Below, piece by piece: positions 3,696 through 52,291 of a DNA stretch of 64,000 nt. Position numbers and translations under genes: made by a program. The notes under the pieces were generated by a model, which saw nothing but the letters and a program-made list of their open reading frames with translations, searched no databases and was not told the origin of the DNA. The stretch comes from Carnobacteriaceae bacterium zg-C25. Its GTDB lineage: Bacteria > Bacillota > Bacilli > Lactobacillales > Aerococcaceae. Numbering within the stretch: position 1 is the stretch's first letter; every line of letters starts with the position of its first letter. The stretch spans positions 496,001 to 560,000 of the forward strand of contig CP072828.1 in the NCBI GenBank assembly GCA_017945845.1. Reading direction: 5' to 3'.

Positions 3696-4991
3696 TTATA
3701 GTTGATTTTTAATAATATCTTCTAAAGTTTCGCGTTTAATGGCGAGTTTGTGATGACCGTCTTTAACCAATACAACGGCAGGGCGAAGCATTTGGTTATA
3801 ATTAGATGCCATTGCGTAATGGTAAGCACCTGTACAACTGACAACTGCCAAATCATTGATTTGAGGTGTCGGCACTTCAATGTCGTACGCTATCATATCG
3901 CCCGATTCACAACATTTACCTGCAAATGTCACCACTTCCTCAAGTTTATCGTTCATACGATTGGCTAGTGCCACTTCGTATTTAGCACCGTACAAAGCGG
4001 TGCGGATATGATCACTCATCCCACCATCAATAGAGACGTAGGTTCGTACATTGGGGATACGTTTAATCGTTCCAATTGAATACAGAGTATAGCCAGCTTC
4101 TCCAACAATGGAGCGTCCCGGTTCTAGCCATAATTGTGGAATTGGTAAGTGATAGTGCTGTGCTGCGTTTTTTAACGATTCCACAATTTCTTCTAAAGCC
4201 GTTTCGATTGGATAGGATAAATCATCTTTTGTATAACGGATACCAAAGCCTCCGCCGATATTTAAAACTTGCGCGGTAAAATCCAATTTATTTTTTAAAA
4301 CATCGAAAAATTGAAATACTTTATTGATGGCAACGCGAGTACCGTCTGTTCCAAAAATTTGTGAACCGATATGGAAATGTAAGCCGATTAAATTTAAGTG
4401 CGAAGCATCTAATATCGCTTTTACACCTTCAAAGGCTTGACCGTTATCAATGTTTAATCCAAATTTAGAATCCGTTGACCCTGTTGAAATAAATTCGTGG
4501 GTATGTGCTTCAACGCCTGGCGTCACACGCAGTAAGCAATTAGGTGTTTTTCCCATATCCATTGCCAATTGATTTAACCGTGAAATTTCATCAAAACTAT
4601 CAATTACGATACATCCAATGCCCTTATCTAATGCAAAGTGTAATTCTTCGATTGTTTTGTTGTTTCCGTGAAGATGAATGTTTTTAGGGTTAAAATCGGC
4701 AGAAAGGGCGTTAAATAATTCGCCAATTGACACAACGTCTAATCCCATATTTTCTTCTTGCATGATGCGAACAATGGCTTTACACATAAATGCTTTACTA
4801 GCATAGGAAACGTGATAGTGTAATCCGGATTTTTCTAATACACGATGAAAACGCCGGCATTGCTCACGAATTAAGGCTTCATCGTAAATCATTAACGGTG
4901 TCCCGTATGCTTTGGCTAATTCAGTCGTATCGACTCCACCGACGGTTAAGTGTCCAAGTTCATTAATTGTTGCTGTTCCATGTAATTGCAT
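3696..4991 (-). CDS. lysA: Diaminopimelate decarboxylase
   Basis: This 431-residue PLP enzyme of fold type III catalyses the last step of lysine synthesis, meso-DAP to L-lysine plus CO2. The Schiff-base lysine lies in YASKAF (about Lys66). Further along are HIGSQI, NIGGGFG, EPGRS and CCESGD, the last carrying the cysteine of the active site contributed by the partner subunit. The gene is the last of the riboswitch-controlled lysine operon, 9 bases after the racemase-like gene, with AAGAGGT before its ATG. All family hallmarks are intact, in contrast to the neighbouring fold-III protein. Confidence 0.96.
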   Translation of the reverse strand: MQLHGTATINELGHLTVGGVDTTELAKAYGTPLMIYDEALIREQCRRFHRVLEKSGLHYHVSYASKAFMCKAIVRIMQEENMGLDVVSIGELFNALSADFNPKNIHLHGNNKTIEELHFALDKGIGCIVIDSFDEISRLNQLAMDMGKTPNCLLRVTPGVEAHTHEFISTGSTDSKFGLNIDNGQAFEGVKAILDASHLNLIGLHFHIGSQIFGTDGTRVAINKVFQFFDVLKNKLDFTAQVLNIGGGFGIRYTKDDLSYPIETALEEIVESLKNAAQHYHLPIPQLWLEPGRSIVGEAGYTLYSIGTIKRIPNVRTYVSIDGGMSDHIRTALYGAKYEVALANRMNDKLEEVVTFAGKCCESGDMIAYDIEVPTPQINDLAVVSCTGAYHYAMASNYNQMLRPAVVLVKDGHHKLAIKRETLEDIIKNQL

Positions 4992-5000
4992 AAATACCTC

Positions 5001-6038
5001 TTAAATAATGTAATTCACGAGTAATGTGTCGTGTTGTAAACTAGTCAGTTGTTGTAAAGCGGTGTAATTTTGTTTGTGCGTTTGCTCATATAAAGGCAAT
5101 GTTTGGTCGTAAATGGTAACGGAATGCCCAAAATCAACCGATTCATCAACGATAATCATCAGTTCATATGGAGAAATGCTGATGCATGTAAAGCGTTTTT
5201 CATTAATGATAACGTCATGATTGAGTAGGCGAGAAGGAATTAACCCATTTGCATATCCGATATTCACAATTGCGACACGTGTAGGCGAATTTGCGATAAA
5301 ATCATTGATTTTTTGACCTGCGGGTACAGTTGTAATGTGTGAAACGGTTGCTTTTAAAGTAATCACAGAAGCAACGTTTTCTTTGTTAAATAAGCCATAA
5401 ATGAATTGTGTTAAACGGGCATGTGTATTGCCTTCAATTAACCCATTTTCATAAATTAGCGTATCACACGTTTGTGCGTGAACGAACTGAAATGAATGGA
5501 ATTGCGATAGTAATTCGATGATTTGCAACCATTCATTTTTAGCTGTTGCATACATTTCTTTATCTGTCGGTGCCGGTAATTGTGTTGCTAATCCAACAAT
5601 TGTTAATTCGCTTTCTAAAGCCTTTTTTAACACTTCTAGCAGTTCTTTATTGTTTTGACAACCAACAAGGGTAGTACCTGCATATTGTATATGCCAAGAA
5701 ATGTCGTGCATATATTTATAGTACGCCTTAATAAAATCGTAACTGGTAATGTAAGCGTCAATACGGTAGTTGCGTAATGTATCGAAATCGGTTGTTATAC
5801 CCGTATATAAAATGGTAACATCATCATACATTTCTCGAATTTGTCGTGCTTCATTTAATGAATAAGTTGTAAAATAGCGAACACCACAATGATAAAGTGT
5901 GCGCACAACTTGTTTTAATCCGAGATTTAAAGCATTATGGCTAACGTTTGCAAAAAAATGACCATTTGTTTTGTTCATTGCCATTTTAGTGTTATAAGTT
6001 AGTGCTGCTAAATTGATAGTTAATTGAGGATTTTTCAA
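5001..6038 (-). CDS. Degenerate alanine-racemase-like protein in the lysine operon, catalytic lysine missing
   Basis: This 345-residue protein follows the alanine racemase layout: N-terminal barrel strand LTINLAALTYNT, the segment where racemases have VKANAYGHG, and a C-terminal beta domain with VPAGQ and IGYANG. The PLP lysine segment reads VSHNALNLG, so the lysine is serine. The region holding the second catalytic residue (racemase VSYGA) reads KINDF, so the tyrosine also appears lost, and the CMDQ segment is altered. The frame is intact over full length, with AAGGAG before a TTG start at 6038. A PLP racemase reaction seems impossible. It may be a regulatory or scaffolding pseudoenzyme, or bind a different ligand. 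The position between dapB and lysA suggests a lysine-related role. Confidence 0.75.
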   Translation of the reverse strand: MKNPQLTINLAALTYNTKMAMNKTNGHFFANVSHNALNLGLKQVVRTLYHCGVRYFTTYSLNEARQIREMYDDVTILYTGITTDFDTLRNYRIDAYITSYDFIKAYYKYMHDISWHIQYAGTTLVGCQNNKELLEVLKKALESELTIVGLATQLPAPTDKEMYATAKNEWLQIIELLSQFHSFQFVHAQTCDTLIYENGLIEGNTHARLTQFIYGLFNKENVASVITLKATVSHITTVPAGQKINDFIANSPTRVAIVNIGYANGLIPSRLLNHDVIINEKRFTCISISPYELMIIVDESVDFGHSVTIYDQTLPLYEQTHKQNYTALQQLTSLQHDTLLVNYII

Positions 6039-6100
6039 CGTTTTTCTCCTTAATGATGATTAAATGTACTGTATTGGTGTTGGAATGGATAAAGCATAAT

Positions 6101-6127
6101 GGAGAATGGCTTTTTAGCGCATTCTCC
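6101..6127 (-). other. Intercistronic hairpin inside the lysine operon
   Basis: GGAGAATG (6101-6108) and CATTCTCC (6120-6127) form an 8-bp stem in the 112-base gap between dapB and the racemase-like gene. No T-run follows on the minus strand, so it is more likely an mRNA processing or stability element than a full terminator. Confidence 0.5.
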
Positions 6128-6150
6128 ACCATGATTGTTTATGTGTCTTA

Positions 6151-6879
6151 TTAAAGGGTGGTGAAATCATAAAATCCAGAGTTTTTTTCGATTAATTTTG
6201 ATGCTGCACGTAGAGCACCATCTGCAAAAATACGTTTTGATTGTGCGCGATGCGTTAATTCGAAAACCTCATCGACTCCAGCAAATAATACTTCATGTTC
6301 ACCGACAATTGTACCACCACGAACGACGCTCATACCGACCTCATTGTTAGACCGTTTAGTGTGTAACTGTGAACGATCATATACAGGGGTTAAGGCTGGA
6401 TTTACAGATTGTAACGCTTCTAATAATTTAATGGCTGTACCACTTGGAGCGTCCACTTTTTGATTGTGGTGTCGTTCAATTATTTCAATGTCGTAGCCTT
6501 GTAATAACGGTGCGGCATATTTTAATAATTGTGTAAAGACGTGTACACCGTAACTCATATTGGCGCTGAAAAATACAGAGATATGTTGACTAGCGTCGGC
6601 CATTAATTGCTGTAAATGTTCTCGTGCACCTGTTGTTGCCACGACAATCGGTGTTAAATGGACGTGTGCTTGTTCCAATAGCGGTGTGACATTAATGGGA
6701 TGTGAAAAATCAATGATGACATCAGCTTTTGGTAAATCATTGACCTTATCAACAACGGGGTAGGGGCAGTTGTCAATGGGAATGGTTGAAAAAATACCTA
6801 CCACGGTATGACCGTTTTCACGAGCCAATTCGTCGACGACTTTACCCATCGCGCCGTAACCACTTAAAATAATGTTCAT
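6151..6879 (-). CDS. dapB: 4-hydroxy-tetrahydrodipicolinate reductase
   Basis: This 242-residue protein carries the dinucleotide-binding start GYGAMGK (residues 7-13) and the family signature ERHHNQKVDAPSGTA, which includes the catalytic His pair and Lys. It reduces hydroxy-tetrahydrodipicolinate to tetrahydrodipicolinate with NAD(P)H in the DAP/lysine pathway. Its ATG overlaps the dapA stop codon by one base, so the two are translationally coupled. Length is slightly below the roughly 270 residues common in this family, with no sign of truncation. Confidence 0.95.
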   Translation of the reverse strand: MNIILSGYGAMGKVVDELARENGHTVVGIFSTIPIDNCPYPVVDKVNDLPKADVIIDFSHPINVTPLLEQAHVHLTPIVVATTGAREHLQQLMADASQHISVFFSANMSYGVHVFTQLLKYAAPLLQGYDIEIIERHHNQKVDAPSGTAIKLLEALQSVNPALTPVYDRSQLHTKRSNNEVGMSVVRGGTIVGEHEVLFAGVDEVFELTHRAQSKRIFADGALRAASKLIEKNSGFYDFTTL

Positions 6880-7784
6880 TATAAACTTTCCTCCATTGCG
6901 ACGCGTTCTTCGTATTGTTGAATAATGAGTTGACGATAAAAATCGGTAGTTGGCACTAACGGCAAACGAAGAACATCTTGTGAATAACCTAGATGATACA
7001 ATAGTGCCTTCATTGGTGCTGGGCTCACGTCTTCAAAAAAGGTGTTCATAAATGGACATAGTCGCAATTGAAATTCGCGTGCTTCATCAAGTTTGCCTTG
7101 TTTATAAAGTGTATAAATATGTGCAACTGATTTTGGTAAAACGTTTGATGTCACGCTAATAATACCGTGCCCACCAAAAACTAAATAACCTAAAAACGAC
7201 TCGTCATCACCAGAATATAAGCGAAACTCAGGTTTGTCGAGTAAAACATTTTTAATTTTCGACATGTATTCCATATCACCTGTTGCATCTTTGAATCCAA
7301 CAATATTCGGATGTTTTGCTAACTTACCAAGTGTTTCGGGTAAAACGGTCATCCCTGTTCTTCCCGGTACGTTATAGACGATAATTGGTAAATCAACGGC
7401 ATCAGCAATTGCGTAATAGTGGGCAACTAAACCGTGTTGACTTGTTTTGTTGTAATAAGGTGTCACGATAAGTGCAGCATCGGCACCAGCTTCTTTTGCA
7501 GCGCGAGTATGTTCAATGGCAACGGCAGTATTATTTGATCCAGTCCCTAAAATAAGAGAACACGCTTGATTGCCGCGCAATTGAATGGCACGTTTTAATA
7601 AGTTGATTTTTTCTTCAAGAGACAGTGTAGCGCCTTCTCCAGTCGTTCCGGCAATGACAAGTCCCTGTATACCGTTGTCTAATTGTGATTGAATTAAACG
7701 GTCAAAATTATGATAGTCAATTGATCCGTCAGTAAACATAGGTGTTGCAACAGCCGTACCGACGCCACTAAATAGTTGAGTCAT
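6879..7784 (-). CDS. dapA: 4-hydroxy-tetrahydrodipicolinate synthase
   Basis: This 301-residue TIM-barrel lyase condenses pyruvate with aspartate semialdehyde. Visible hallmarks are GTTGEGATL for the pyruvate carboxylate site, YNVPGRTG with the catalytic tyrosine, and GFKDATGD with the Schiff-base lysine. The ATG at 7784 follows AAAGGAG with 7-base spacing. It sits between asd and dapB, matching pathway order. The arginine that binds lysine allosterically cannot be judged without alignment. Confidence 0.95.
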   Translation of the reverse strand: MTQLFSGVGTAVATPMFTDGSIDYHNFDRLIQSQLDNGIQGLVIAGTTGEGATLSLEEKINLLKRAIQLRGNQACSLILGTGSNNTAVAIEHTRAAKEAGADAALIVTPYYNKTSQHGLVAHYYAIADAVDLPIIVYNVPGRTGMTVLPETLGKLAKHPNIVGFKDATGDMEYMSKIKNVLLDKPEFRLYSGDDESFLGYLVFGGHGIISVTSNVLPKSVAHIYTLYKQGKLDEAREFQLRLCPFMNTFFEDVSPAPMKALLYHLGYSQDVLRLPLVPTTDFYRQLIIQQYEERVAMEESL

Positions 7785-7812: not shown

Positions 7813-8799
7813 TTACTGTTTAAGTTGTTCTAGTAATTCTGCGATTTGAACGGTGTTACTTGCGGCACCTTTACGGATGTTGTCACCAACACACCAAATA
7901 TGGAACGTGTTTTCTAAAGAGTGATCTACACGAATGCGTCCGACCAATACTTCATCTCTATCGTTTGCGTGAATTGGCATAGGGTATTCGTTGTTTTGTG
8001 GGTTATCCACCAAAATAACACCTGGTGCATTTTTTAAAATGGCACGAATTTCGTCAACAGTGGTTGGTTTATTAAAAGTGACGTTGATGGCTACACTATG
8101 CGAATTTAAAATAGGCACACGCACGCAAGTAGCCGTAATCTTAACATCATCAGATAATGATAAGATTTTCTTTGTTTCTAAAATCATTTTTAGTTCTTCT
8201 TTTGTATAGCCTTCGTCATTGAAAACATCAATATGCGGTAGGACATTATTATAAATTGGGTGTGGATAGTTTGTCGGTGCTTCGCCTTTAGCGCCATTGA
8301 TTAAATCGTTAATTCCTGCTTGACCAGAACCTGAAACGGCTTGGTAAGTTGTGTAAGCGACACGTTTTAAGCCGAAAGCATCGTGTAACGGTTTTAGCGG
8401 AACAACAGATTGAATAGTAGAGCAGTTTGGATTGGCAATAATTTTACGTTGTAATGAAGGTACATTACATTCTGGTACGATTAAGTCAATACTGTCATCC
8501 ATACGCCAAGCACTTGAATTATCGATAACGATAACGCCGTTTTGTTCAGCGATTGGTGCATAGTGTAAAGATGTTTTGCCACCTGCCGAAAATAGAGCAT
8601 AGTCAATTGGACGATTGAATGATTGTTCAGTTAATTCTTCAACAACATATTCTTTTCCACGAAATAGCATTGTTTTCCCTGCTGAACGATGTGATGCCAA
8701 TAAATATAAATTTTCTACTGGTAATGCGCTTTCTTCTAAACGTTTAATCATTTTTTGGCCAACAACACCTGTTGCGCCGACAATAGCAAAGTTTGCCAT
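7813..8799 (-). CDS. asd: Aspartate-semialdehyde dehydrogenase
   Basis: This 328-residue protein begins with GATGVVGQ for NADP binding. It has NPNCSTIQ, carrying the nucleophilic cysteine that forms the thioacyl intermediate, and SGSGQAG further on. It reduces aspartyl phosphate to aspartate semialdehyde, the branch point to lysine/DAP, threonine and methionine. It is the first gene after the lysine riboswitch, with AGGAGG before its ATG. Placing asd first in the operon puts aspartate semialdehyde supply under lysine control; no aspartokinase gene is seen here. Confidence 0.95.
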   Translation of the reverse strand: MANFAIVGATGVVGQKMIKRLEESALPVENLYLLASHRSAGKTMLFRGKEYVVEELTEQSFNRPIDYALFSAGGKTSLHYAPIAEQNGVIVIDNSSAWRMDDSIDLIVPECNVPSLQRKIIANPNCSTIQSVVPLKPLHDAFGLKRVAYTTYQAVSGSGQAGINDLINGAKGEAPTNYPHPIYNNVLPHIDVFNDEGYTKEELKMILETKKILSLSDDVKITATCVRVPILNSHSVAINVTFNKPTTVDEIRAILKNAPGVILVDNPQNNEYPMPIHANDRDEVLVGRIRVDHSLENTFHIWCVGDNIRKGAASNTVQIAELLEQLKQ

Positions 8800-8869: not shown

Positions 8870-9056
8870 GACATCTACGATTGGCTAGCACTCCATTATC
8901 AGTGATAATGACAAAATAGGCGTTATTCACGACTATTCCAACATTTTATATGAAGCAACATATAAAACATTTCGGCGATTATCCCTTTCCTTTTAAGCTG
9001 ATTGCTTTCATTACTTAAAACTACTCATGATTTTCGCGCCTCTATCCTAAAATCTA
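8870..9056 (-). promoter_or_regulatory. Lysine riboswitch (L-box)
   Basis: Read on the minus strand, the leader shows the conserved L-box blocks in order: GATAGAGGCGCGA, GAGTA, GAAAGGG followed by CGCCGAA, and the closing GGAGTGCTAGCC. These correspond to the P1 junction, the kink-turn and loop E regions and the core of the lysine aptamer. A terminator hairpin and then asd follow. Lysine binding is expected to favour termination and shut off asd-dapA-dapB-racemase-like-lysA. Exact ends are approximate. Confidence 0.92.
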
Positions 9057-9112: not shown

Positions 9113-9847
9113 TTAATTATTTATCGGTGTAAAATGGTCAACTACCTGTCCAACAATATTTAAATAGTGCGGTGTATTTAAAGGAATGATAATGTCCTCA
9201 TATTTATCGTTTAAAGAAACTAACCGTAAATTATCTTTTTCAAAATACACTTTTTTTACATACGATTTTTCATTGTAGTCAACCGTATAAATTTGTCCGC
9301 TAATATGATGTACATTTTTTTGCAGTAAAATCACATCGCCATTTTTGATTTCTGGTTCCATACTATCTCCAGATACCAATGTCGCCACATCATAAGTTTT
9401 TAAGTTGTCACGATCTGTATAAAAAGTAGTGGTTTGATTATTGTCGTAACTGTATCCAACACCAGCAGCCACCGCTTCGACAACTTGAATAGGGAACAAA
9501 TGGCGTTTTGCAACTGATCGTTTTTCAATGAGTGATTTTGCAAATACAATCGTTTCTTTTTTTTCATTAGGTTGTAATTGTTTAATCGTTTGAATCAATT
9601 CTTTTGTTTGTGAATCAATTTGCCCAGTTGTTTTTACCGTTTTATAGTCTAAACCAAATAGAAGCGTTGTAACATCGGTATGAAAAATATCGGCTAGGCG
9701 AATTAAATCGTCGACCATTGGACTACGATCTCCTTTAATCCAGCGGGACATCGCTGATTTTGATTTTCCAAAATGTTCACCTAATTGCTCTAAAGTCATG
9801 TCGTGTTGTTTTCTAAAATAGTTAATCATTTCAGGTAGTTGAATCAT
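9113..9847 (-). CDS. HTH-S24 self-cleaving repressor (HdiR/CI-like)
   Basis: This 244-residue protein has an XRE-type helix-turn-helix (about 8-62, with TLEQLGEHFGKSKSAMSRW) and a C-terminal S24 peptidase domain. All LexA-type autolysis residues are visible: cleavage pair Ala128-Gly129 in VAAGVG, Ser162 in SGDSMEP and Lys198 in YVKKVY. It should repress transcription as a dimer and cleave itself when RecA filaments form after DNA damage. No phage genes surround it, so it looks like a chromosomal stress regulator rather than a prophage repressor. TTGTAAAC half-sites in its own promoter suggest autoregulation, and a small membrane peptide is divergently transcribed. The HdiR comparison is from architecture, not from a search. 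Confidence 0.85.
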   Translation of the reverse strand: MIQLPEMINYFRKQHDMTLEQLGEHFGKSKSAMSRWIKGDRSPMVDDLIRLADIFHTDVTTLLFGLDYKTVKTTGQIDSQTKELIQTIKQLQPNEKKETIVFAKSLIEKRSVAKRHLFPIQVVEAVAAGVGYSYDNNQTTTFYTDRDNLKTYDVATLVSGDSMEPEIKNGDVILLQKNVHHISGQIYTVDYNEKSYVKKVYFEKDNLRLVSLNDKYEDIIIPLNTPHYLNIVGQVVDHFTPINN

Positions 9848-43215: not shown

Positions 43216-43313
43216 TATAATACAGTTATATACGGGAGTCTGTGTACAGTCTGAGAGGAAGTGTAAGCTTCGACCATACCTGATCTAGGTAATGCTAGCG
43301 TAGGGAAATGAAA
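43216..43313 (+). promoter_or_regulatory. TPP riboswitch (THI box) with upstream -10 box
   Basis: After TATAAT at 43216-43221, the conserved THI-box blocks appear in order: GGGAGTC (43234), CTGAGAGGAAG (43251), CGACCATACCTGATCT (43271) and AATGCTAGCGTAGGGAAATG (43291-43310). This is the thiamine pyrophosphate aptamer. A terminator hairpin follows before the thiamine-related genes, so TPP should switch them off by termination. Confidence 0.95.
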
Positions 43314-43327
43314 ATGACAGTATTTTT

Positions 43328-46329: not shown

Positions 46330-46363
46330 TACAACATAAAATAGAATGGAGGTATTATGTATT

Positions 46364-49300
46364 TTGAAATATGTAATCAATAAGCTAGGCAAAATGATAG
46401 CGGTATTCATTTTGCTAGCATCACAGCTTCTCAGTTTTGGCGGGGGGTACACCCAAGCCTTTGCAGAAGATAATACAACTTCGGTTGTTACAACATCTGT
46501 AACATATGTTGATAAGAGTGTGACTGGCACAAAATCTGGAGAAAATACATCGTTTTATTTAAACGTTGCTGTATCCGGATCAAACACAAATTATCAACAA
46601 CCATATGTTGATGTTGAATTTAGTAAGTCTCTTTTTGAAAAACCAAATAACCCGTCAACCGCAGCGAGTTTGGAAAAATATGAATTGGTAGAAACGGCTG
46701 ATAAATATATTATGCGTTTTACGTATAAAAGTTTAGCAGGTGGTACAAACGTCTCAATTCCTTTTCAGTTGAAATTAAAACCGCATCAATTGATGAATAA
46801 CGAAAAATTTGATATCAAACAAACGTTTTTCACGAATGATGATGTAGAAGTTTACAACAATACCAATCAATTTGTTGTTGAAACGAATAAACCAACGATT
46901 GGTAGAATTGCAAATTATGTTCATACCATTCCAGGTCCTGAACCAGTTCCAGCAACAGTAGCAAATGATCATATCGTTACAATTCCGGGTCCAGGTCTTC
47001 TACCACCACAAGTTCAATATGCAGGATATGGTAGAGATAGTCGACCAGTTGAAGTGAGTATTGTTACCCCTGATAATTTTATGTTCGATCAAGCGTTAAA
47101 TGCCGACTGGACCTATGATGCTACAACGAAAACATTAAAACGTGTCATTATTCCTAACGAGACAAAAACTAGTGGTACGTATGATTTTAATTTTGCTTTT
47201 AAACTACAAAATCAACCGTTTGATGTTCCGGTACCGTTTACGTACTCAATAGCTTATAAAAATAATGACGGTACAACAGAACCGATTGAAAGCAATCGTG
47301 TACAAAATGTAACGTTTAACTATTATCCTTACCAAGAAGGAACAATGGGAATTGTAAAAACAGGTACACCTTATCAACGTTTTTATTCTGAAACAGATTT
47401 TAATTCGGAATATGCTTGGACCTTAGGTATTGATTTTGGCGATGCTACGAAATATGTTCAAATCGGAGATAAAGTTGGATTTGATAAAATCACGGATACA
47501 CCATCTAATAATGTGGGACTTAAATTTAATGAAGTTGCCATTTATACACCTGCTGCTTTACCGAACGGCATTTACGATGCAGATAATTTAGCGAAATTAT
47601 CACGTAACCGTGTCGTTGGGACTTTACCAGATGATTCGACAGAAGAAATCGCGAGAAATGTTCCACTGTCAACATCTGCTAATAAACAATTTGTTAATTT
47701 AAATGGTAAAGTATTTAAAAAAGTAGAATTTATTTTTGATGAGCCTGTTTTAGTCACTAAACTAGATGACAAAATCCATAGAGTTATTGTGGTTGAGTAT
47801 CGTACAACATTGGATCAACCAACAATTGCTAAAATCGATACATGGGCAAAAGATTTAAAAAACTATAGACAAACATATAGCATTCCAAACAGAGCTAGTG
47901 TTTCGTACAAGACACATACTTCACCGGAAGCTCTTTCTTCAACAACTGTACGTCCATCATTGGCGTTTGTTTTTGGATCATACACTTATTTAACAACACC
48001 TAATGGTGGTACTTTAGTTTATCCAGATCAAGTCATTCAATACCGTAACCGTCTTAACATTGAACAACGTTCACGGGCGGATAAAGAGTTTAAAGATGGT
48101 AAAGTGATTATTTTAGCACCTCCAGGATTAATTTGGAACGGTGTAACTAGAGTAAGAGATGAGGATCCTTCAGAAGGAACCTTTAAATTAAGTGATACAT
48201 ATGAAACCGTTTATAACTATAAAGACACTGGTAAAACAGCGTATATTTACGATATTGTAGAAAGTACAATTTACGGAAATAAAACAGATGATTCTCTTTT
48301 AGATGATTATAAAGAAATAATTGGGTCATTTACAACAACACGTGAGTTACCTGAAAATACAACGTTAACTATTGAAACACTATATTCATTTAGTAATAAT
48401 AAAGTCTTTAATAATGATTTAATTGTCGGTAACAAACCAGACCGATTAGATGTTGATGAAGATGGCGATACTGCGGAAAATCTTACTGATTCATCTGCAC
48501 CATTTATTTTCACACCACCAAAAGAGTTGATTGTAAGTAAAAAATCAAAAAATGACGGTGAAGAAGACGGGAAATACTTCAGTAGTACAACAACAGACGG
48601 TTTAGATGTCTTAAATTATCGTGTTGATATTTTTAATAATACAGATAATCCAATTGGAAATGCTACTGTAATTGATGTGTTGCCACATTTAAATGATTTG
48701 GTCATCGTACCAAATAAAGAAGGTGTCTATGCTGAACGTGGTACAGAGTACCGTTCTACTTTAGTAGGACCAGTTACAGCACCAGAAGGGTATACAGTGT
48801 ATTACACAAGCGATGCTCCAAAAGGCACATTGGCAGGAAATGTAGCGTTGAATTGGGTATTAGCCAATGCCGTTACAGATTTTTCAAAAGTGACAGCTTT
48901 AAAATTTGTAATGAACCCAGGTAAAGAAATTGCTCCAAAAATGACAGACCATGTGTACTTTAGTGTCAAAAATCCTTCAACAACAACTGTTGATGGTAAT
49001 CGCGTTTCAAATAATACGGTAGCGTACTACTTCGGCAATAACGTTGATGGTGCGGTAGAATCTTTCAAAAATACAGCTGTTTTAACAGAGTATGTTGTTA
49101 AAGGTAAAGCGTATTATGACCGTAATGATGACAGTACATTTAATGAGGGTGATGTTGTAATTGCCAATCGTGAAGTCGTATTGTACAAAGTTGAAAATGA
49201 TGTTGAAACTGAAGTATCTCGAACAACAACAAATGATGCGGGAGATTACACATTTACTAACATCATTGAAAAACGCGGTGACTATCGTGTTAAAATTACA

Positions 49301-52291
49301 AAAAATCCAAATGATTTATTAACAACTCCTTTAGCATCTACAGCTACAGATGTTAATAATGACTTAACGGCTGATGATTATGCTGCGGTAACGTTAGATG
49401 CCCAAAAACAACGTGGCGTATTAAACTTAGCGTTAAAAAATATTTTCGGTACAGTAAATACTTACCATCAAAGTGAAACGGGAGAAACGTTATCACCAAG
49501 TACAACACAAGTAGGCGTGGTAAACACTACTTACAATACGCAACCAGCAACAATTGAAAACTACACATTTAAAGAAGTATCGACAACTTTAGGTTCAGCA
49601 GCTACTGGTAACTTTATTGATGGCACGGTTAATGTGTACTATATTTACCAACGTAGTAATGCTGGTAAAGTTACTGTAACGCATAAAGATGAAACAGGTG
49701 CAACAGTATCTCCACAAGTTGAATTGAATGGAACGAATAAACTTGGTTTACCATACACAACGAATTTCGTAACTGTGGAAAACTTTACATTGATTACGAC
49801 ACCAGAAAATGCGACAGGAACATTTACAACAGTTGATCAAACGGTTAACTATGTATACCGTCGTAATGATGCTGGTAAAGTTACTGTAACGCATAAAGAT
49901 GAAACAGGTGCCGTATTAGCGCAACCAGTTGAATTAAACGGTACACAAAAACTAGGTTTACCATATACAACAAATGCAGTAACAGTTGAAAATCACACAT
50001 TGATTACAACTCCAACAAATGCAACAGGAACGTTTACAACAGGCGAACAAACAGTTAACTATGTCTACCGTCGTAATGATGCTGGTAAAGTTACTGTAAC
50101 GCATAAAGATGAAACGGGTGCCGTATTAGCGCAACCAGTTGAATTGAATGGTACACAAAAATTAGGTTTACCATATACAACAAATGCAGTAACAGTTGAA
50201 AATCACACATTGATTACAACTCCAACAAATGCAACAGGAACGTTTACAACAGGCGAACAAACAGTTAACTATGTCTACCGTCGTAATGATGCTGGTAAAG
50301 TTACTGTAACGCACAAAGATGAAACAGGTGCCGTATTAGCGCAACCAGTTGAATTAAACGGTACACAAAAATTAGGTTTACCATATACAACAAATGCAGC
50401 AACGATTGACAACTATGAATTAGTGACAACACCAACAAACGCGACAGGAACGTTTGCAACAGGCGAACAAACTGTTGAGTATGTATACCGTCGTAAAAAT
50501 GCTGGTAAAGTTGTTGTGACACATAAAGATGAAACAGGTGCTGTATTAGCGCAACAAGTTGAGTTAGATGGCACACAAAAACTAGGTTTACCATATACAA
50601 CAAATGCAGTAACAGTTGAAAATCACACGTTGATTGCAACACCAACAAACGCAACAGGAACATTTACAACAGGCGAACAAACTGTTGAGTATGTCTACCG
50701 TCGTAATGATGCTGGTAAAGTTGTTGTGACACATAAAGATGAAACAGGTGCCGTATTAGCACAACAAGTTGAGTTAGATGGCACACAAAAACTAGGTTTA
50801 CCATACACAACAAATGCAGCAACAGTTGAAAATCATACGTTGATTGCAACACCAACAAACGCAACAGGAGCATTTACAACAGGCGAACAAACTGTTGAGT
50901 ATGTCTACCGTCGTAATGATGCTGGTAAAGTTGTAGTAACATTCAAAGATGAAAACGGCGAAGTGTTAGCTGAACAAGTTGAATTAGATGGCACACAAAA
51001 ATTAGGTTTACCATACGAAACAACATCAGCGACAGTTGAAAACTATGAATTAGTGGTAACACCAGAAAATGCGACAGGCACATTTACAACAGAAGAACAA
51101 ACGGTTGAATATGTTTATCGTCGTAAAAACGCTGAAAAAGTTGTGGTAACATTCAAAGACGAAAACGGCGAAGTGTTAGCTGAACAAGTTGAATTAGATG
51201 GTACACAAAAACTAGGTTTACCATACGAAACAACATCAGCGACAGTTGAAAACTATGAATTAGTGGTAACACCAGAAAATGCGACAGGCACATTTACAAC
51301 AGAAGAACAAACCGTTGAATATGTATACCGTCGTAAAAATGCTGAAAAAGTTGTGGTAACATTCAAAGACGAAAATGGTAATGCATTATTACCACCAGTT
51401 GAATTGGATGGCACACAAAAATTAGGTTTACCATACGAAACAACATCAGCGACAGTTGAAAACTATGAATTAGTGGTAACACCAGAAAATGCGACAGGAA
51501 CATTTACAACCGAAGAACAAACAGTTGAATATGTCTACCGTCGTAAAAACGCTGAAAAAGTTGTGGTAACATTTAAAGACGAAAAAGGTAATGTATTAGC
51601 ACCATCAGTTGAATTAGACGGTACACAAAAATTAGGCTTACCGTACGAAACAACATCAGCAACAGTTGAAAACTATGAATTAGTTGCATTACCAGCAAAC
51701 GCGACAGGCACATTTACAACCGAAGAACAAACGGTTGAATATGTATACCGTCGTAAAAATGCTGAAAAAGTTGTCGTAACATTCAAAGACGAAAACGGTA
51801 ATGTATTAGCACCATCAGTTGAATTAGATGGTACAAACCAATTAGGTTTACCATACGAAACAACATCAGCGACAGTTGAAAACTATGAACTAGTTGCATT
51901 ACCAACAAACGCAACGGGCACATTTACAACAGATAAACAAACGGTTGAATATGTATACCGTCGTAAAGACGCTGGTAAAGTGGTTGTAACGTATACTGAT
52001 GAAAACGGTAAAGTGCTAGCGCAACAAGTTGAGTTAGACGGTAAAAATAAACTAGGCTTACCATATGACACTGAAAATAAAGTCATTGAAGGTTATGTAT
52101 TGATTGCCGTACCAGCCAATAAAGCAGGTATCTTCGGTACAGACGCTCAAGAAGTACGCTATGTTTATCGTGCTTTACCAAAACCTCAATTGCCAAAAAC
52201 AGGACAACAATCTGACTTTGTTGGATTAGGTGGTATTTTATTGGCAGTTGCTTACATGTTAAAACGTCAAAGAAAACAACATGTGAAATAA
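46364..52291 (+). CDS. Giant LPxTG wall-anchored adhesin with MucBP-like repeats
   Basis: This protein is about 1975 residues. A signal peptide (hydrophobic MIAVFILLASQLLSF, likely cut after AFA) leads to a 900-residue unique region of beta-rich domains with PGPEPVP-type linkers. A SdrD B-like domain follows (about 909-1020, GKAYYDRNDDSTFNEGDVV), then a divergent repeat and twelve 70-residue MucBP-like repeats (about 1100-1939). LPKTG (about 1943-1947), a hydrophobic span and a basic tail complete the sortase signal. It likely binds mucin or host glycans. Start is ambiguous: ATG 46346 contains the GGAGG site itself, ATG 46357 is best spaced but encodes only eight residues in another frame, so TTG 46364 is used. 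Confidence 0.9.
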   Translation: MKYVINKLGKMIAVFILLASQLLSFGGGYTQAFAEDNTTSVVTTSVTYVDKSVTGTKSGENTSFYLNVAVSGSNTNYQQPYVDVEFSKSLFEKPNNPSTAASLEKYELVETADKYIMRFTYKSLAGGTNVSIPFQLKLKPHQLMNNEKFDIKQTFFTNDDVEVYNNTNQFVVETNKPTIGRIANYVHTIPGPEPVPATVANDHIVTIPGPGLLPPQVQYAGYGRDSRPVEVSIVTPDNFMFDQALNADWTYDATTKTLKRVIIPNETKTSGTYDFNFAFKLQNQPFDVPVPFTYSIAYKNNDGTTEPIESNRVQNVTFNYYPYQEGTMGIVKTGTPYQRFYSETDFNSEYAWTLGIDFGDATKYVQIGDKVGFDKITDTPSNNVGLKFNEVAIYTPAALPNGIYDADNLAKLSRNRVVGTLPDDSTEEIARNVPLSTSANKQFVNLNGKVFKKVEFIFDEPVLVTKLDDKIHRVIVVEYRTTLDQPTIAKIDTWAKDLKNYRQTYSIPNRASVSYKTHTSPEALSSTTVRPSLAFVFGSYTYLTTPNGGTLVYPDQVIQYRNRLNIEQRSRADKEFKDGKVIILAPPGLIWNGVTRVRDEDPSEGTFKLSDTYETVYNYKDTGKTAYIYDIVESTIYGNKTDDSLLDDYKEIIGSFTTTRELPENTTLTIETLYSFSNNKVFNNDLIVGNKPDRLDVDEDGDTAENLTDSSAPFIFTPPKELIVSKKSKNDGEEDGKYFSSTTTDGLDVLNYRVDIFNNTDNPIGNATVIDVLPHLNDLVIVPNKEGVYAERGTEYRSTLVGPVTAPEGYTVYYTSDAPKGTLAGNVALNWVLANAVTDFSKVTALKFVMNPGKEIAPKMTDHVYFSVKNPSTTTVDGNRVSNNTVAYYFGNNVDGAVESFKNTAVLTEYVVKGKAYYDRNDDSTFNEGDVVIANREVVLYKVENDVETEVSRTTTNDAGDYTFTNIIEKRGDYRVKITKNPNDLLTTPLASTATDVNNDLTADDYAAVTLDAQKQRGVLNLALKNIFGTVNTYHQSETGETLSPSTTQVGVVNTTYNTQPATIENYTFKEVSTTLGSAATGNFIDGTVNVYYIYQRSNAGKVTVTHKDETGATVSPQVELNGTNKLGLPYTTNFVTVENFTLITTPENATGTFTTVDQTVNYVYRRNDAGKVTVTHKDETGAVLAQPVELNGTQKLGLPYTTNAVTVENHTLITTPTNATGTFTTGEQTVNYVYRRNDAGKVTVTHKDETGAVLAQPVELNGTQKLGLPYTTNAVTVENHTLITTPTNATGTFTTGEQTVNYVYRRNDAGKVTVTHKDETGAVLAQPVELNGTQKLGLPYTTNAATIDNYELVTTPTNATGTFATGEQTVEYVYRRKNAGKVVVTHKDETGAVLAQQVELDGTQKLGLPYTTNAVTVENHTLIATPTNATGTFTTGEQTVEYVYRRNDAGKVVVTHKDETGAVLAQQVELDGTQKLGLPYTTNAATVENHTLIATPTNATGAFTTGEQTVEYVYRRNDAGKVVVTFKDENGEVLAEQVELDGTQKLGLPYETTSATVENYELVVTPENATGTFTTEEQTVEYVYRRKNAEKVVVTFKDENGEVLAEQVELDGTQKLGLPYETTSATVENYELVVTPENATGTFTTEEQTVEYVYRRKNAEKVVVTFKDENGNALLPPVELDGTQKLGLPYETTSATVENYELVVTPENATGTFTTEEQTVEYVYRRKNAEKVVVTFKDEKGNVLAPSVELDGTQKLGLPYETTSATVENYELVALPANATGTFTTEEQTVEYVYRRKNAEKVVVTFKDENGNVLAPSVELDGTNQLGLPYETTSATVENYELVALPTNATGTFTTDKQTVEYVYRRKDAGKVVVTYTDENGKVLAQQVELDGKNKLGLPYDTENKVIEGYVLIAVPANKAGIFGTDAQEVRYVYRALPKPQLPKTGQQSDFVGLGGILLAVAYMLKRQRKQHVK
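49661..52180 (+). repeat. Twelve tandem 210-base repeats in the adhesin gene
   Basis: Units start at 49661 and recur every 210 bases through 51971 without a single length change. Each encodes 70 residues opening with (A)GKVxVT or EKVVVTFKDE, then LGLPY and ending VEYVYRR. Units 2 and 3 are nearly identical at DNA level, units 5 and 6 and units 7 and 8 are also close pairs, while units 1 and 12 are most divergent, the usual sign of internal duplication. Confidence 0.95.

Follow-up and report, generated by a model that had tools for sequence, protein, structure and literature searches.

A probable relic of the predicted diaminopimelate epimerase DapF2, lacking the PLP lysine, in the lysine operon of a Ddh-encoding member of the Lactobacillales

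Within the lysine operon of Carnobacteriaceae bacterium zg-C25, a complete reading frame encodes a protein with the fold of an alanine racemase in which the PLP lysine is missing, raising the questions of what this protein descends from, why its active site was lost and why the gene is still present. The window, i.e. the whole 64,000-nucleotide stretch of DNA that was analysed, contains the following features of interest:

3696..4991, minus strand: lysA, diaminopimelate decarboxylase (TIGR01048, 472.6 bits)
5001..6038, minus strand: alr2*, here called pseudo-dapF2, encoding a 345-aa alanine-racemase-fold protein without the PLP lysine
6046..6051, minus strand: ribosome-binding site AAGGAG of pseudo-dapF2, read from the sequence
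6095..6133, minus strand: stem-loop of about 17 bp in the gap between dapB and pseudo-dapF2 (-25.1 kcal/mol for the stretch, z -3.36)
6151..6879, minus strand: dapB, 4-hydroxy-tetrahydrodipicolinate reductase (TIGR00036, 181.3 bits)
6879..7784, minus strand: dapA, 4-hydroxy-tetrahydrodipicolinate synthase (TIGR00674, 289.9 bits)
7813..8799, minus strand: asd, aspartate-semialdehyde dehydrogenase (TIGR01296, 414.7 bits)
8878..9052, minus strand: lysine riboswitch, upstream of asd (RF00168, 113.6 bits)
43222-43324: TPP riboswitch, upstream of a MucBP surface protein with a few genes between

Read on the minus strand from 9052 to 3696, the order is lysine riboswitch-asd-dapA-dapB-pseudo-dapF2-lysA, and this position between dapB and lysA under a lysine riboswitch agrees with the membership in the lysine pathway that an earlier note on this DNA had proposed. 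The operon lacks dapD, dapL and lysC. The pseudo-dapF2 frame of 345 codons opens with a TTG start behind TTAAGGAGAAAAACG, with GGAG 7 nt 5' of the start, and no internal stop codon or frameshift was found in the sequence of 5001-6038, as expected from the earlier description of an intact frame with a good ribosome site. A frame artefact was rejected on the basis of normal codon use, both codon-phase composition and synonymous codon use matching those of the operon neighbours. At the 3' end, the Shine-Dalgarno sequence of lysA overlaps the pseudo-dapF2 stop codon (TAAGAGG), leaving a gap of 9 nt between two adjoining genes that are probably translationally coupled. At the 5' end, the 112-nt gap behind dapB contains the strong stem-loop and lies at the position occupied by dapD-dapL in relatives; there is no U-run after the stem, which could be a site of RNA processing or attenuation. 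Directly upstream of the riboswitch operon and on the same strand is a regulator with HTH and peptidase S24 domains (LexA/cI-like, 9113-9847), and elsewhere in the window, a few genes downstream of the TPP riboswitch, is a surface protein of 1981 aa that carries 13 stretches of MucBP repeats (46346-52291).

The encoded protein matches the Pfam domains Ala_racemase_N (50.6 bits) and Ala_racemase_C (42 bits) above their cut-offs, and its structure, predicted for the protein alone with a pLDDT of 92.5, has alanine racemases (6g56, 3oo2) as its best PDB matches (TM about 0.8-0.89 by query length). In an alignment with 29 Alr and 100 Alr2 sequences, S33 of the PLP segment VSHNALNLG falls, ungapped, in the column of the PLP lysine and directly after the first barrel strand of the predicted fold, bearing out the earlier reading that the PLP lysine is missing. 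The column of the catalytic Tyr265 is deleted together with the neighbouring loop (GQKIN--DFIAN), the equivalents of K39, Y43, R136, H166, N203, S204, Y265 and M312 (Geobacillus Alr numbering) are all replaced or deleted, and the equivalent of R219 is retained as R208. The MMSH motif of DapF2/Alr2 has become SPYE. Only 1 of the 14 active-site positions that are invariant in 100 Alr2 sequences is kept, compared with 28 of the 52 other invariant positions (Fisher p=0.002), and this excess of active-site changes (13/14 against 24/52) indicates that the lysine-to-serine replacement is not a misreading. Hydrophobic columns are still hydrophobic in 90 of 101 cases (89%). The protein is a racemase-fold protein that has lost the PLP lysine, the catalytic tyrosine and the contacts to cofactor and substrate, and in this respect the earlier note was correct.

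Its description as an alanine-racemase pseudoenzyme, however, requires revision. Identity as a true Alr was rejected, since the match to TIGR00492 (70.3 bits) is below the 168-bit NCBIfam equivalog cut-off for Alr, the catalytic residues are gone and a true Alr (TIGR00492, 351 bits) is encoded elsewhere in the genome. The closest relatives (~30% identity) are instead the Alr2/DapF2 proteins of lysC-asd-dapA-dapB-dapD-dapL-alr2-lysA operons, whose hosts include Staphylococcus, Macrococcus, Vagococcus and Marinilactibacillus. Among 149 related genomes, ten strong relatives were detected at protein level, with E-values of E-30 to E-37, compared with E-10 or worse for true Alr; dapL is directly upstream in all ten, and in Vagococcus lysA is directly downstream and overlaps alr2 by 4 nt. 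When 395 genomes of the order were searched with a profile, Alr2 was found in 21 of them at or above 433 bits, the lowest of these scores being that of the window copy against a profile that contains it, while true Alr reached at most 177 bits, and a single-sequence search agreed with the profile on an Alr2 clade separate from Alr. Pseudo-DapF2 groups with the 100 Alr2 sequences in the protein tree (support 0.984); the tree placement of the window operon is ambiguous because of long branches. All 80 named Alr2 loci, from Staphylococcus, Macrococcus, Mammaliicoccus, Salinicoccus, Jeotgalicoccus, Vagococcus, Marinilactibacillus, Alloiococcus and others, adjoin dapD and dapL and keep the PLP lysine; the S. 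aureus annotation has the same operon order, and a class-wide sample contained further staphylococcal-type copies. There were no observed instances of the same lysine-to-serine version beside another lysA, for which the earlier note had suggested a survey, and the PLP lysine is present in every intact Alr2 relative examined, with the serine of pseudo-DapF2 as the exception. No relative was found in a single-protein scan of genome contigs, and no second copy of pseudo-dapF2 was found in its own family (76 genomes) or genus. Judged by sequence, pseudo-dapF2 belongs to the Alr2/DapF2 family as a dead copy, and the link to DAP epimerases, which had been dismissed because of the missing lysine, holds at the level of the family, whose intact members are the predicted epimerases.

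Alr2 of S. aureus is reported as unlikely to function as an alanine racemase (PMC10827132), and the role of staphylococcal Alr2 has been described as unclear, with no established function (PMC12723384). A metabolic reconstruction based on genome context named it DapF2, a predicted PLP-dependent DAP epimerase that replaces DapF (PMC9026213). Across the 395 genomes of the order, Alr2 and DapF never coexist: all 20 genomes with an intact Alr2 have DapD and none has DapF, which is found in 152 of the 253 DapD genomes, giving a probability of ~3e-9 for the absence of DapF from all 20 by chance if shared ancestry is ignored. In several genomes the operon stops at alr2 without lysA, as would suit an operon whose product is meso-DAP itself. 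The papers searched contained no epimerase assay of an intact DapF2; the genomic pattern suggests that the intact relatives are DAP epimerases.

The genome containing the window (1.42 Mb, one contig) appears to have changed its route to meso-DAP. Neither DapF nor DapD was found in the whole genome, a DapD-like match being rejected because its 211-aa ORF is 21% identical to DapD and belongs to a cluster resembling surface-polysaccharide synthesis, and the earlier observation that the cluster has no DAP epimerase extends to the rest of the genome. Ddh, the meso-DAP dehydrogenase, is present at another locus (TIGR01921, 478 bits). As Ddh produces meso-DAP in one step without LL-DAP, an epimerase would be redundant in this genome, for which the inferred route is asd-dapA-dapB-Ddh-lysA. 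The disappearance of dapD and dapL, together with the use of Ddh, is the probable reason for the loss, which the earlier note had missed. A genome from another family, G222, has Ddh without DapD or DapF and an operon lysC-asd-dapA-dapB-lysA in which alr2 is gone and dapB and lysA are 18 nt apart, and this looks like a parallel outcome of the same switch. Ddh alone is not the cause of loss, given that three genomes with an intact Alr2 also carry it. A further intact Alr2 operon (G183, L199) lacks dapD between dapB and dapL and has Ddh on the same contig; it is possibly an intermediate of the same switch, although its genome has a DapD match somewhere.

The Ddh variant of lysine synthesis, which involves no epimerase, accounts for the lost catalysis but leaves the survival of the gene unaccounted for, and several explanations of the latter were considered. 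The simplest is that pseudo-dapF2 is unused and decaying, with a stop codon merely yet to arise, in keeping with a redundant epimerase step, a small genome, absence of the gene from congeners and a protein whose rate of evolution is about double that of its relatives (ratio of 2.12 for Alr2 compared with 1.27 for the rest of the operon, FastTree). In simulations, however, free mutation to the observed divergence resulted in ~16 stop codons where none is observed, and neutral decay to even 80% identity already resulted in ~5; together with the normal codon usage and the keeping of core positions while the active site was lost, this makes simple decay quite improbable. Alternatively, the open frame could be kept only to give ribosomes access to lysA, through translational coupling or avoidance of polarity, with an idle protein, as the overlap of the lysA ribosome site with the pseudo-dapF2 stop codon and the alr2-lysA overlap in Vagococcus would allow. 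Across 40 simulations in which stops were forbidden, however, 3-10 of the 14 active-site positions were kept and hydrophobic columns were retained at a mean of 76% and a maximum of 86.5%, whereas pseudo-DapF2 shows 1 of 14 and 89%, and a deletion as in G222 would serve equally well, so we regard this explanation as unlikely. Both readings are disfavoured by the simulations and the retention of the fold. Since simulated decay misses the observed pattern even with stops forbidden, catalysis appears to have been abandoned and the fold maintained by selection, in line with the earlier impression that the frame is selected for; this argument comes from one sequence without a close relative and from simple simulations.

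The change of active-site positions beyond no-stop drift, as if they had been replaced by selection, along with the intact predicted fold, could also be explained if the former pocket had acquired a different reaction that does not need PLP. We consider this a rather improbable origin of the pattern, as a new conserved motif cannot be recognised from a single sequence, and we know of no Alr-fold enzyme without PLP. That the protein is still an active racemase of alanine or another amino acid, holding PLP through a different lysine, is very unlikely indeed: the retained R208 is in its favour, and against it are the ungapped serine after the first barrel strand, the change of every other catalytic equivalent listed above and the proper Alr elsewhere in the genome. 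The reading that we favour, with reasonable confidence, is that pseudo-dapF2 is a relic of dapF2 left by the switch to Ddh and retained as a folded protein without PLP, acting most likely by binding. The ancestor would have been a dapF2 (alr2) gene for a predicted PLP-dependent epimerase converting LL-DAP to meso-DAP in an acetylase-type lysine operon; the lineage would then have lost dapD and dapL as Ddh took over the supply of meso-DAP, and the protein, no longer needed as an epimerase, may have shed the PLP lysine, the catalytic tyrosine and the cofactor and substrate contacts while staying folded under selection. Beyond the ancestry, the active-site loss, the changed gene content and the selective maintenance observed computationally, the protein probably has a new non-catalytic job, possibly as a structural or regulatory partner of an operon enzyme. 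Pseudo-DapF2 and LysA both have fold type III and come from families known to form dimers, and LysA is the leading guess for the partner because of the adjacent genes, the probable translational coupling and the shared fold type. The narrower idea that the dead DapF2 is a regulatory pseudoenzyme, binding LysA or another operon enzyme to tune lysine output in the Ddh-type pathway, is tentative and on balance doubtful.

A possible analogue is the antizyme inhibitor (AZIN), a dead homologue of ornithine decarboxylase which acts by binding a partner. Both would represent fold-type III PLP enzymes that lost their activity; AZIN, however, is eukaryotic and from a different subfamily, and the partner of pseudo-DapF2 is a candidate only. 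With Alr (TIGR00492), pseudo-DapF2 has in common the fold-type III barrel, the C-terminal domain and the Arg219 equivalent. With DapF2, including S. aureus Alr2 (PMC9026213, PMC10827132, PMC12723384), it shares the family, dapB and lysA as neighbours, riboswitch control and a genome without DapF, but it differs in the loss of the PLP lysine and of a further 12 invariant positions of the active site, and in a genome with Ddh in place of the acetylase route of dapD and dapL. The Alr2/DapF2 family and its predicted role were already known and the dead retained member is the new part; the literature searched, including that on alanine racemase pseudoenzymes, described no such member in connection with a change of pathway. 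The locus can be seen as nature's own test of a gene assignment that is unproven, that of staphylococcal Alr2 as a DAP epimerase: where the step is not needed, the gene was deleted (G222) or its active site lost (the window), and this, with the lack of coexistence with DapF, independently supports the DapF2 prediction. Pseudo-dapF2 may also exemplify, in a single recognisable operon, the retention of an enzyme that no longer catalyses its reaction.

Both DapF and Alr2/DapF2 are absent from 81 of the 253 DapD genomes, among them genus g5, which belongs to the same family as the window, and many members of genus g24, indicating that further DAP epimerases exist. The class-wide sample also contained, in another family of the class, a divergent second group of DapF2 (L211-L218, 266-300 bits), with the lysine kept, an MSH motif and the operon order dapD-aminotransferase-dapF2-lysA.
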